Positions 29,167 to 33,153 of a stretch of 64,000 nucleotides of DNA are shown here, one piece after another. Position 1 is the stretch's first letter, and each line of letters opens with the position of its first letter. The stretch lies in the NCBI RefSeq assembly GCF_000024725.1, contig NC_013960.1, positions 3,644,001 through 3,708,000 of the forward strand. Reading direction: 5' to 3'. The notes below the pieces were generated by a model. It was not told the origin of the DNA. It searched no databases and saw only the letters and a program-made list of their open reading frames with translations. The position numbers and the translations under genes were made by a program. The DNA comes from Nitrosococcus halophilus Nc 4 (GTDB taxonomy: Bacteria > Pseudomonadota > Gammaproteobacteria > Nitrosococcales > Nitrosococcaceae).

Positions 29167-29526
29167 ATGAGCACAACTAACGCCATTAACGCCATGCCAA
29201 GTCCGTTAATATTTACCGATGCTGCCGCCAGCAAAGTCAAGGAGCTTATCGAGGAGGAAGGTAACGATAAACTAATGCTGCGGGTGTTTATTAGTGGTGG
29301 CGGGTGCTCAGGCTTCCAGTATGGATTTACCTTTGATGAAACCTGCCACGAAGGCGATACTCAGGTAGAAAACGGCGGGGTCACCTTACTCATTGATCCC
29401 ACCAGCTATCAGTACTTGGTAGGAGCGGAAATCGACTATACCGAGGGCTTGGAAGGCGCTCAGTTTGTGATCCGTAACCCCAACGCGGCAACCACCTGTG
29501 GCTGTGGTTCCTCGTTCTCGGTTTAA
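29167..29526 (+). CDS. erpA: Iron-sulfur cluster insertion protein ErpA
   Basis: 119 residues of the A-type carrier family with the three conserved cysteines: one in [12 protein letters not shown] and two in [11 protein letters not shown]. The end SSFSV and overall length fit ErpA. It transfers [2Fe-2S] or [4Fe-4S] clusters to targets such as IspG/IspH and complex I. GGAG lies upstream of the ATG. It ends at a strong terminator, so the ferredoxin gene that follows probably has its own promoter. Confidence 0.95.
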
Positions 29527-29617: not shown

Positions 29618-29932
29618 ATGAGTGAACCTTACTATCGTTATCACGTATTTTTCTGCACTAATCAGCGGGATAATGGTCGCCCCTGTTGCCAGAACCATGA
29701 TGCTTTAGCACTTCGAAACTATGCTAAAGAGAAAGTAAAAGCCCTCGGGTTGGCCCAGCAGCGTCAAGTGCGCATTAACACTGCGGGCTGCCTTAACCGA
29801 TGCGCCCAGGGACCCACCATTGTGATCTACCCTGAGGGAACGTGGTATACCTATGCCAATCGTGAAGACATTGATGAAATTATCAATGAACACCTGATGA
29901 AGGGTCACCCCGTTGAGCGCCTGCGGATTTAA
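29618..29932 (+). CDS. Thioredoxin-like [2Fe-2S] ferredoxin
   Basis: 104 residues from ATG 29618. It has the thioredoxin-like [2Fe-2S] ferredoxin pattern: cysteines in FFCTNQRDNGRPCCQN and in TAGCLNRCAQGPTIVIYPEG, with WYTY and a C-terminal helix DIDEIINEHL. Such proteins (Shethna-type, also found as a domain in NuoE of complex I) carry a [2Fe-2S] cluster. The partner is unknown. The gene lies between erpA, a cluster donor, and a squalene-synthase-like gene 27 bases downstream with which it probably shares a transcript. Confidence 0.9.
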   Translation: MSEPYYRYHVFFCTNQRDNGRPCCQNHDALALRNYAKEKVKALGLAQQRQVRINTAGCLNRCAQGPTIVIYPEGTWYTYANREDIDEIINEHLMKGHPVERLRI

Positions 29933-29959: not shown

Positions 29960-30826
29960 ATGGATCCGGCTACCTATTGCCAAAATAGGGCAACCCAGCA
30001 AGGGACGAGTCTTTACTATAGCCTCCTCTTTCTGCCTGAACCTCAACGGCGGGCTGCCACCGCACTCTATGCTTACCAAAAAGAGATCGTTGGCATCGTA
30101 GCCGAGTGCTCCGATCTAGGCGTTGCCCAAACTAAACTCCAATGGTGGCAAGAGGAAATTACTCGGTTATTTACCGGTCATCCCCGGCATCCTGTCACCC
30201 AGTCCCTCGCTACTCCCATCAGAAGCTATCATCTCCCCCAACAATCCTTCCTGGAGGTAATTGAAGGCGTCAGCAGTGATTTAGGGCAATGGACTTATCC
30301 CTCTTTTCAGACCCTCATCTCCTATTGCCAGCAAGTCGCCGGGATCATTAGTTCAATGGCAGCCGAGATCTATGGTTACCAGGACCCAAAAACTCGACAA
30401 TATGCTAAAAATCTGGGAGTTGCCTTACAATTGACCCATATCCTGCGCAATATACGCCAAGACGCTGCCCAAGGCCGTATTTACCTCCCTCGGGAAGAAT
30501 TCACCCGTTTTAAGGTCCCGGTGGAAGATATCCTCTCTGGAGGAAGTGACAATTCCCAAGGGATGGCAACTCTCCTCGCCCAGCACGCAAGCCGGGCCCG
30601 TCAGTATTTTCACAGTGCCCTAGCTGAACTTGGCCAGCGTGATTACTATGCACAGCGCGCCGGGCTAACCCAAATAGCGCTAGGTCTGAGTCTTCTGAAT
30701 GCCATCGAAGAAGAGGGCTACCCGGTCCTCAAACAACGAATTTCTTTAACCCCCTTGCGTAAGCTTTGGATCGCTTGGCGCACCTCACATCGTGCCCGCC
30801 GAGGCCTTGCTCCCCAGTATCAATAA
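29960..30826 (+). CDS. Squalene/phytoene-synthase homologue lacking key aspartates (probable pseudoenzyme)
   Basis: 288 residues from ATG 29960 (GAGGAG eight bases upstream), full length for HpnC/HpnD-type trans-isoprenyl diphosphate head-to-head synthases. Family signatures are clear: YYSLLFLPEPQRRAATALYAY, CSDLGVAQTKLQWWQEEI, YCQQVAGIISSMAAEIYGY and DAAQGRIYLP. However, the first aspartate motif, normally EVDDVVDE, reads EIVGIVAE (residues 42-49), and the second, normally LRDVxxDA, reads LRNIRQDA, leaving only D168. These aspartates bind the Mg-diphosphate groups, so the usual reaction looks impossible. No other hopanoid or carotenoid genes are near. The neighbours erpA and a [2Fe-2S] ferredoxin suggest another role. 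Confidence 0.85.
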   Translation: MDPATYCQNRATQQGTSLYYSLLFLPEPQRRAATALYAYQKEIVGIVAECSDLGVAQTKLQWWQEEITRLFTGHPRHPVTQSLATPIRSYHLPQQSFLEVIEGVSSDLGQWTYPSFQTLISYCQQVAGIISSMAAEIYGYQDPKTRQYAKNLGVALQLTHILRNIRQDAAQGRIYLPREEFTRFKVPVEDILSGGSDNSQGMATLLAQHASRARQYFHSALAELGQRDYYAQRAGLTQIALGLSLLNAIEEEGYPVLKQRISLTPLRKLWIAWRTSHRARRGLAPQYQ

Positions 30827-30850: not shown

Positions 30851-31654
30851 TCAGCGTTGCCCTCGGCCTTGTCCTCCCCTCCGTTGGCTGCTCGGTCGGG
30901 ACTGGGTAGGACGCGGCTCCATTCCCGCCGCCTCTAATAAAGCTTTGAGCTCTGGTCGCTCAAGAAAACGCCAGCGCCCCAAACGCAATCCAGGGGGTAA
31001 GCGGATAGGCCCGAAGCGGATGCGTATTAGCCGACTCACTCGAACCCCTTGGGATTCCCAAAGACGTCGAACCTCCCGATTACGTCCTTCCCGGAGAATA
31101 ACATGATACCAGTGATTGGCGCCCTCGCCACCAGCATCAAGTATTTGCTCAAAACGGGCCAGACCATCTTCTAATGTCACCCCCCCCTGTAGGCGCTCAA
31201 TAACGTCCTCCGCCACGGTACCTAAAACCCGAACCGCATATTCCCGCTCTACTTGGGTGGAAGGATGCATCAAACGGTTAGCAAGTTCACCATCGGTCGT
31301 GAGCAACAAGAGACCGGAGGTATTGATATCCAAGCGCCCAACACTGATCCAGCGGCCCTGCTGGGGGCGTGGTAAAGACTGGAAAACATTGGGGCGCCCC
31401 TCCGGATCCTTGCGGCTACAAACCTCACCGGCCGGCTTATGATAAATAATGACTTGAGAAGAAGGGGGCTGCAACCGCTTGGGCGATATGGGCCGGCCAT
31501 CAATAGTCACCCGATCCTTAACCGACACCTTATCCCCGAGCTGAGCTGGAACACCATTGACCCGAACCCGACCCGCTTTGATCCAAGCTTCAATCTCCCG
31601 GCGAGAACCTAGTCCCCCCCGAGCCAATATTTTTTGCAGGCGCTCTGCCACCAA
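30851..31654 (-). CDS. rluB: 23S rRNA pseudouridine synthase RluB
   Basis: 267 residues. An N-terminal S4 RNA-binding domain (about 3-60: RLQKILARGGLGSRREIEAWIK) is followed by an RsuA-type synthase domain with the catalytic aspartate in VGRLDINTSGLLLLT and the motif REGRNREVRRLWES. The basic C-terminal tail (SRPSSQRRGGQGRGQR) is typical of RluB, which makes pseudouridine 2605 in 23S rRNA; the close relatives RluE and RluF lack this combination. The start is TTG 31654 (AAGG upstream) or GTG 31651. It follows scpB on the minus strand, a common arrangement. Confidence 0.93.
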   Translation of the reverse strand: MVAERLQKILARGGLGSRREIEAWIKAGRVRVNGVPAQLGDKVSVKDRVTIDGRPISPKRLQPPSSQVIIYHKPAGEVCSRKDPEGRPNVFQSLPRPQQGRWISVGRLDINTSGLLLLTTDGELANRLMHPSTQVEREYAVRVLGTVAEDVIERLQGGVTLEDGLARFEQILDAGGEGANHWYHVILREGRNREVRRLWESQGVRVSRLIRIRFGPIRLPPGLRLGRWRFLERPELKALLEAAGMEPRPTQSRPSSQRRGGQGRGQR

Positions 31655-31678: not shown

Positions 31679-32347
31679 CTACTGCTTGCGCAGGCCTTCA
31701 TCAGGAGTGGGTACAGGCTCAGCGGAAATCTCTTCAGAGGGTGGCAGTTCTTGTTCCCGGACCGTATCCTCTTTCCCTAACCCCCCCTCGACCAAAGTGA
31801 GTTCTATTTGCGGTTCACCCAGAGTTTTTATTTCCGCCAGGGGTGGCAATTCATTCAAGCTCCTAAGATTAAATTGGTCTAGGAACTTGCGGGTGGTACC
31901 ATACAAAGCAGGTCGTCCAGGGACTTCCCGGTGCCCAAGGACCCTGACCCACTCCCGCTCCTGCAAGGTCTTCATAATAGAACTGCTGACGGAAACGCCA
32001 CGAATCTCTTCGATTTCCGCGCGGGTGATCGGCTGACGGTAAGCGATAAGGGCTAAAGTCTCTAAGAAGGCCCGAGAATAGCGGGAGGGCCGCTCTTCCC
32101 AGAGGCGGGAAATCCAAGGGGCTAATTCCTGTCGGATCTGGAAACGATAACCGCTATGGATCTCCTTCAACTCAATCCCCCGGCCTTCCCACTCTGCTGC
32201 AAGGTCCTCAAGCACCTTGCCTACCTGGTCTCGAGATGGCCGCCTCCTTTCATCAAACAGCTTACCCAACTGCTCCACCGACAAGGGCCGATCCGCTGCC
32301 AACAGCGCAGCTTCAATAATATTTTTTAGGGAACACAACTCACTCAT
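31679..32347 (-). CDS. scpB: Segregation and condensation protein B
   Basis: 222 residues, with two winged-helix domains (about 8-90 and 95-165) typical of ScpB: IIEAALLAADRPLSVEQLG, then SRAFLETLALIAYRQPITRAE and RGVSVSSSIMKTLQERE, ending VLGHREVPGRPALYGTT and KFLDQFNLRSLNELPPL. It dimerises and joins ScpA and SMC in the condensin complex that compacts and separates chromosomes. The acidic tail (about 180-222) is variable. Its ATG overlaps the scpA stop by four bases, so the two are translationally coupled. Confidence 0.95.
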   Translation of the reverse strand: MSELCSLKNIIEAALLAADRPLSVEQLGKLFDERRRPSRDQVGKVLEDLAAEWEGRGIELKEIHSGYRFQIRQELAPWISRLWEERPSRYSRAFLETLALIAYRQPITRAEIEEIRGVSVSSSIMKTLQEREWVRVLGHREVPGRPALYGTTRKFLDQFNLRSLNELPPLAEIKTLGEPQIELTLVEGGLGKEDTVREQELPPSEEISAEPVPTPDEGLRKQ

Positions 32348-33153
32348 GCCGCCACTGCCCTCACATGTAGCGGACCATAAGCCTCAGCCTGGACGACTTC
32401 CAGCAGGGACTCCTTCATCAGTTCCAGGATGGCTAGAAAAGTGACGACTACCCCCAAACGCCCCTCTTCTGGGCGGAATAAAGCGGTAAATTCGCAAAAA
32501 CTATCGCCACTCACCCGGCTTAGCACTTCCCCCATACGCTCCCGTACCGATAAGGCTTCTTGAGTCACATGGTGGTGGCTGAACATTTCCGCCCGAGCCA
32601 ATACCCCCTTAAGGGCAAACAAGAGATCGGCCAACTCAAGTTTGGGCTGAGGCTTGACCACCTGTTCAGGTGGAAGGTGGGCTCCCGTCGCGAAGACATC
32701 CCGGCCCACTCGAGGCAGCGAATCTAAATCCTCGGTGGCCTTCTTATAACGCTCATACTCTTGGAGGCGGCGAACCAATTCCGCCCGGGGATCCCCCTCT
32801 TCTTCAGCGGCCTCCTGGGGACGGGGCAATAACATCCTTGACTTAATTTCAGCGAGCCAAGCCGACATAACCAAGTACTCTGCCGCTAATTCTAGACGTA
32901 GCTCGCGCAGAATCTCAATGTATTCCATGTACTGGCGGGTAATCGCCGCGATAGGGATGTCCAAGATATCCAGATTTTGCCGCCGGATCAGATAGAGCAA
33001 CAAGTCCAATGGTCCTTCAAAGGACTCCAGAAAGACTTCCAAGGCATCAGGGGGGATATAAAGATCATGGGGCAACTCGGTAATGGGCCGCCCTTGAACG
33101 ACAGCAAGCGCTGGGACTACTGAAGGCGGCGTTTGCTCCGGTGTTTCACCCAT
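32344..33153 (-). CDS. scpA: Segregation and condensation protein A
   Basis: 269 residues of the kleisin ScpA. After a short variable start (about 1-35), FEGPLDLLLYLIRRQNLDIL and IPIAAITRQYMEYIE form the SMC-contacting N-terminal domain. AAEYLVMSAWLAEIKSRMLL follows, and the C-terminal winged helix includes FRPEEGRLGVVVTFLAILEL. It bridges SMC heads in condensin. The stop overlaps the scpB start. trpS lies upstream on the same strand, 52 bases away, likely in one transcript. Confidence 0.95.
   Translation of the reverse strand: MGETPEQTPPSVVPALAVVQGRPITELPHDLYIPPDALEVFLESFEGPLDLLLYLIRRQNLDILDIPIAAITRQYMEYIEILRELRLELAAEYLVMSAWLAEIKSRMLLPRPQEAAEEEGDPRAELVRRLQEYERYKKATEDLDSLPRVGRDVFATGAHLPPEQVVKPQPKLELADLLFALKGVLARAEMFSHHHVTQEALSVRERMGEVLSRVSGDSFCEFTALFRPEEGRLGVVVTFLAILELMKESLLEVVQAEAYGPLHVRAVAA

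Follow-up and report, generated by a model that had tools for sequence, protein, structure and literature searches.

An HpnD orthologue with an erased active site in Nitrosococcus halophilus and the recurrence of such proteins across the Gammaproteobacteria

Results

The hpnD locus and its product

In the window, by which we mean the whole 64,000-nucleotide stretch of Nitrosococcus halophilus Nc 4 DNA that was analysed (contig NC_013960.1, positions 3,644,001 to 3,708,000), a complete open reading frame on the forward strand (29960..30826) encodes, in frame, a protein of 288 aa. Upstream lie the genes of an ErpA/IscA-type Fe-S carrier (29167..29526, +) and, adjoining it, of a thioredoxin-like [2Fe-2S] ferredoxin (29618..29932, +), which has a weak NuoE-like match and is situated 27 bp upstream of the frame. 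An RluB-type pseudouridine synthase (30851..31654, −) and scpB and scpA (31679..33153, −) follow on the opposite strand and are anchors of the ancestral locus described below.

The initial annotation had called the product full length and built on the squalene/phytoene synthase framework, and the profile searches bear this out. The Pfam SQS_PSY domain (PF00494) is matched in full (residues 12-267, E=6.5e-69), and the score against the NCBIfam equivalog HpnD (TIGR03465) is 331.2 bits with a cut-off of 278.6; the score against one-step squalene synthase (TIGR01559) stays at 23 bits, below the cut-off of 286.75, and the catalytic motifs are absent. The predicted fold is of the HpnC/CrtM type (pLDDT 83, pTM 0.84), and the structure search with this model returned HpnC (4hd1, E=7e-11) and CrtM (TM 0.84). 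YisP of Bacillus is a member of the SQS_PSY family that is not a squalene synthase, and its likeness to the window protein goes no further than this, its structure (3we9) being only a distant match to our model. By sequence, fold and locus, and together with its family orthologues (L003-L008), the gene is an orthologue of hpnD (presqualene diphosphate synthase). It differs from HpnD in that four metal-binding aspartates are replaced, so that neither of the two aspartate-rich motifs (DDxxD, DxxxD) is intact, and in that the partners HpnC and HpnE are absent from the genomes of its family. We refer to its product as pseudo-HpnD.

The former active site

In intact HpnD the two motifs read EVDDxVDE and LRDVxEDA. 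As had been reported from the sequence, the first has become EIVGIVAE in the window protein (residues 42-49; 30083..30106, +), the codons at 30089, 30092 and 30101 encoding V, G and A in place of D44, D45 and D48, and the second has become LRNIRQDA (residues 162-169; 30443..30466, +), with the changes D164N and E167Q and with D168 kept. In the alignment with Staphylococcus aureus CrtM (3vjd), D48, D49, D52 and D172 of the latter are the positions replaced, which agrees with the earlier count of at least four lost metal-binding aspartates (D44, D45, D48 and D164), and CrtM D176, the last aspartate of the second motif, corresponds to the retained D168. Further departures from all intact HpnD are R41K, N160H and E167Q, the equivalents of CrtM R45 and N168 being K and H; R173 and Y175 are present, as is D168. 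These residues lead us to expect that the protein has lost the ability to condense farnesyl diphosphate and would be inactive in vitro, and residual metal or diphosphate binding may persist through D168.

Age of the replacement and squalene supply in the family

Asp-less hpnD is found in all six genomes of the window family, which we take to be the Nitrosococcaceae; its sister family is presumably the Methylophagaceae. The first motif is lost throughout, reading EIVGIVAE in the four genomes of the window genus and EISDIVIE and EIINISLE in the other two, and the second contains LRN, in the form LRN(I/V)RQDA or LRNTRQYA. The initial annotation had named retention of DDxxD in related strains as the observation that would speak against its reading; the relatives share the replacements, and all 4 of the window-genus copies have the same first motif. 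A sequencing accident or a recent mutation was considered and rejected, as the five further family genomes show the same or further loss, and the replacement is old. The reading frame is open in 6/6 members, including those with genomes of 1.8 and 2.0 Mb. The dN/dS comparison proposed earlier gave 0.12-0.17 for hpnD in pairs within the genus and 0.21 in the most distant family pair, with neighbouring genes at 0.02-0.23; the gene is under purifying selection in this family.

Both families share the gene order fdx-hpnD-...-rluB-trpS-M50-serS, the ferredoxin gene being directly upstream of hpnD in each. In the sister family hpnD is intact (EVDDxVDE / IRDVREDA), hpnE follows within ~60 bp at the same locus (fdx-hpnD-hpnE-...-rluB-trpS-M50-serS), and an ispB-type prenyl synthase gene lies just upstream of the locus. 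HpnE occurs in 13 of the 14 sister-family genomes sampled and is absent from all six of the window family, whereas squalene-hopene cyclase (SHC) shows the opposite distribution (0/14 versus 6/6); hpnC and hpnE have been lost in the window family. Besides pseudo-hpnD, each window-family genome contains exactly one SQS_PSY gene, which is SQS-like. In the window genome (G000) its product is a one-step squalene synthase, intact and 366 aa long (L002; motifs ADTIEDE and KDIWDD), encoded directly upstream of SHC at G000:C2:1302835-1305873, outside the window and ~2 Mb from hpnD, and the SQS and SHC matches are close together in the other five genomes as well. HpnD catalysis would be dispensable here because the one-step synthase independently supplies squalene for hopanoids. 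In the order of events that we propose, a one-step SQS beside SHC would have taken over the squalene supply in the family ancestor; hpnC and hpnE would then have disappeared, and HpnD would gradually have lost its Mg-binding aspartates.

Occurrence in other Gammaproteobacteria

In a sample of 369 genomes of Gammaproteobacteria, whose matches were read by alignment, 43 further genomes belonging to 34 families carry an Asp-less HpnD-type protein, and a profile search added more, so that the phenomenon is class-wide and not confined to the window gene. The ancestral locus of most of them is ubiG-gph-rmuC-[hpnC]-hpnD-[hpnE]-yciK-like SDR-nth/GGDEF-rluB-scpB-scpA-trpS, and in other genomes the same locus still contains intact hpnC-hpnD-hpnE. 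In no genome examined do intact and degenerate HpnD-type copies occur together. Where a second SQS_PSY match is present, it is one-step SQS-like by length and score (part of these matches were aligned), and about half of the other degenerate-copy genomes have no second SQS_PSY gene. HpnE occurs along with the degenerate copy in one case out of 49 and with the intact copy in 24 out of 35 (p=1e-11). No clear degenerate copy was seen among the plasmid matches listed, part of which were aligned, and our literature search found no description of Asp-less HpnD in bacteria.

Several single cases deserve mention. Intact HpnD was met without HpnE in 11 of 35 genomes (e.g., G394, G185 and G235), and there the protein may either serve another pathway from (hydroxy)squalene or be kept for a second function. 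Degenerate hpnD still adjoins hpnE at L114 (G367) and L185 (G326), apparently in transitional states, and at L093 it adjoins an hpnC-like remnant, HpnC having perhaps gone the same way there. Very short HpnD remnants of 227-247 aa occupy the ubiG-gph locus at L188, L190 and L189, and those of L188 and L190 retain little beyond the W-W and H-P signature described below. Neisseria, considered as a carrier of the degenerate form, was rejected, its copy being intact and adjoining hpnE.

Residues retained after loss of the aspartates

Residues were compared among 45 intact HpnD, 39 degenerate HpnD and 12 HpnC representatives. R41, D44, D45, D48, Q157, N160, D164, E167, Y175 and Y242 are conserved in ~100% of the intact proteins and scattered in the degenerate ones. 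A second group is kept in both (74-100% in the degenerate set) and comprises S16, Y20, E42, W62, W63, E66, H77, P78 and G153, and likewise R267, K268, W270, A272 and W273; most of the residues common to the two types of HpnD are not kept in HpnC. Within this group the signature L60..W62-W63-x-x-E66..H77-P78 (30137..30193, +) is retained across the degenerate set, W63 and H77 in 100% and W62 and P78 in 97% of the 39 representatives, and, with the exception of P78, the W62-W63-x-x-E66/H77-P78 part is absent from HpnC. The C-terminal signature LTPLRKLWIAW (residues 263-273; 30746..30778, +; family form LTPLRKLWxAW) is retained as well. HpnC and CrtM/CrtB share their fold with the window protein, but are catalytic, have the aspartate motifs and show little of the W-W/H-P and C-terminal signatures.

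On this comparison, HpnD is subject to two separable sets of constraints, of which the non-catalytic set alone survives the loss of the aspartates, and this is our principal argument for a second, non-catalytic function that would predate the loss of catalysis. The retained signature might in part be structural to the HpnD subfold.

Co-occurrence with complex I

NDUFAF6/C8orf38 and its orthologues (Candida NDU1) are SQS_PSY proteins without the DxxxD motifs that have a non-synthase role, acting on ND1 as complex I assembly factors (PMC8007014; PMC12470011). Our literature search found no other DxxxD-less SQS_PSY protein with a known role. The window protein resembles them in lacking both DxxxD motifs and in being retained, and complex I is present in the same organism, the window genome having two genes for NuoH, the ND1 homologue. 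NDUFAF6 and NDU1 differ from it in being eukaryotic and mitochondrial, and the likeness is one of description, not of sequence alignment.

A NuoH gene was found in 49 of 51 degenerate-copy genomes versus 74 of the 100 genomes that gave no match (Fisher p=7e-4), and in 49/50 versus 64/85 at completeness of at least 90% (p=4e-4), both values being uncorrected for phylogeny. This comparison leaves out G224, G332 and five other small genomes, whose proteins are intact and CrtB/CrtM-like. Retention in G224 and G332 (0.28-0.35 Mb) had been considered as proof of essentiality and was rejected for the same reason; the 0.28 and 0.35 Mb genomes (L175, L176) hold an intact phytoene/squalene-synthase-like gene and NuoH. 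G222 has both degenerate hpnD and NuoH versus neither in the congeneric G073, and G354 has both versus neither in G111 of the same family. Two carriers (G230 and G105) are without a clear NuoH, many genomes have NuoH without degenerate hpnD, and E. coli, among the control genomes, has a NuoH match and no SQS_PSY match, that is, complex I without hpnD. No nuo gene was recognised beside the hpnD locus. A role of degenerate HpnD in complex I assembly is weakly supported by these data.

Discussion

An enzyme relative that persists in inactive form is usually a sign of a hidden second function. We consider the window gene to encode a retained pseudoenzyme with a second, non-catalytic function, with a probability of roughly 0.8, and the suggestion of the initial annotation that the protein is under selection for a non-synthase role and is not decaying is thereby supported by the open frames of all six family members, the low dN/dS, the preserved non-catalytic signature and the independent recurrence of the loss discussed below. 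The second function was probably already present in active HpnD. The protein would be kept because this function resides on an HpnD-specific surface independent of the active site, and the candidate surface is formed by W62-W63-x-x-E66, H77-P78 and the C-terminal LTPLRKLWxAW helix.

As to the nature of this function, our best guess, tentative as it is, would be a membrane-associated role in complex I assembly or as a chaperone, by analogy with NDUFAF6; we rank it ahead of a passive role, our second choice, in which prenyl lipids or prenyl diphosphates would be bound and not turned over. More speculative still is the proposal that HpnD was ancestrally bifunctional, combining presqualene diphosphate synthesis with complex I assembly, the Asp-less copies being bacterial counterparts of NDUFAF6. 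If this were true, NDUFAF6 would have lost its aspartates in a further instance of this repeated conversion.

The protein might alternatively still act on prenyl diphosphates, through YisP-like binding or a phosphatase activity. The fold class is kept, as are D168, R173 and Y175 in the window protein, and the surroundings would suit such a role, the sister family having the ispB-type synthase immediately before the locus and many loci being preceded by ubiG; the first motif, however, has no acidic residue at any metal position, and Q157, N160, D164, E167 and Y175 are not kept across the degenerate set, which makes this possibility an unlikely one.

A further question is whether a single inactive paralogue of ancient origin gave rise to all degenerate copies, which would place the window gene in a separate family of old standing. 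The first trees did group them all, with support of 96 (starred) when the motif columns were included and 88/97 when they were not, but this early grouping is probably due to long-branch attraction. When the motif columns were taken out, constraining the window family to group with its intact sister family gave a likelihood 21.8 above that of the free tree, and in the smaller set this grouping was not rejected (p-AU 0.37), whereas a single clade of all degenerate copies was 49 units lower and disfavoured (p-AU 0.034). Two same-family pairs of an intact and a degenerate copy are well supported (100/99 and 98/96), the former within one genus, where the intact copy of G204 and the degenerate copy of G315 share their locus. 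The absence of any genome with both types among those examined and the single shared locus also speak against the paralogue. Seven changes are required on the tree, starred branches forcing three or more of them, and the aspartates were lost several times independently across the Gammaproteobacteria; we regard descent from one paralogue as improbable, and a single ancient pseudo-family was rejected once the one-clade tests had been run without the motif columns.

That the gene is a slowly decaying relic, full length by chance, is an explanation to which we give very little weight. It would agree with the loss of hpnC and hpnE, with a dN/dS somewhat above that of most neighbours and with the shrinkage of some copies elsewhere to 227-247 aa, but not with frames open in 6/6 members down to genomes of 1.8 and 2.0 Mb, with dN/dS of 0.12-0.21, or with the near-invariance of WW and HP (97-100% of 39 degenerate representatives) and retention in 34 further families. 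Equally hard to credit is regulation or scaffolding of the one-step SQS and SHC of the same genome, which both occur in 6/6 family members but at a chromosomal distance of ~2 Mb. Among the other genomes with a degenerate copy, about half have no second SQS_PSY gene at all.

The TIGR03465 model matches all 32 Asp-less proteins of our alignment A1, the window protein above the cut-off, and is thus a source of misannotation. Its equivalog match notwithstanding, the window protein should not be listed as a presqualene diphosphate synthase; equivalog models give this name to inactive proteins and so mislead the prediction of squalene and hopanoid synthesis from genome sequence. With regard to the pseudoenzyme reading that we prefer, the recurrent loss amounts to a natural separation of the residues for squalene synthesis from the residues for something else, and bacteria offer a way to approach what the SQS_PSY fold does biochemically in NDUFAF6, a human disease gene.
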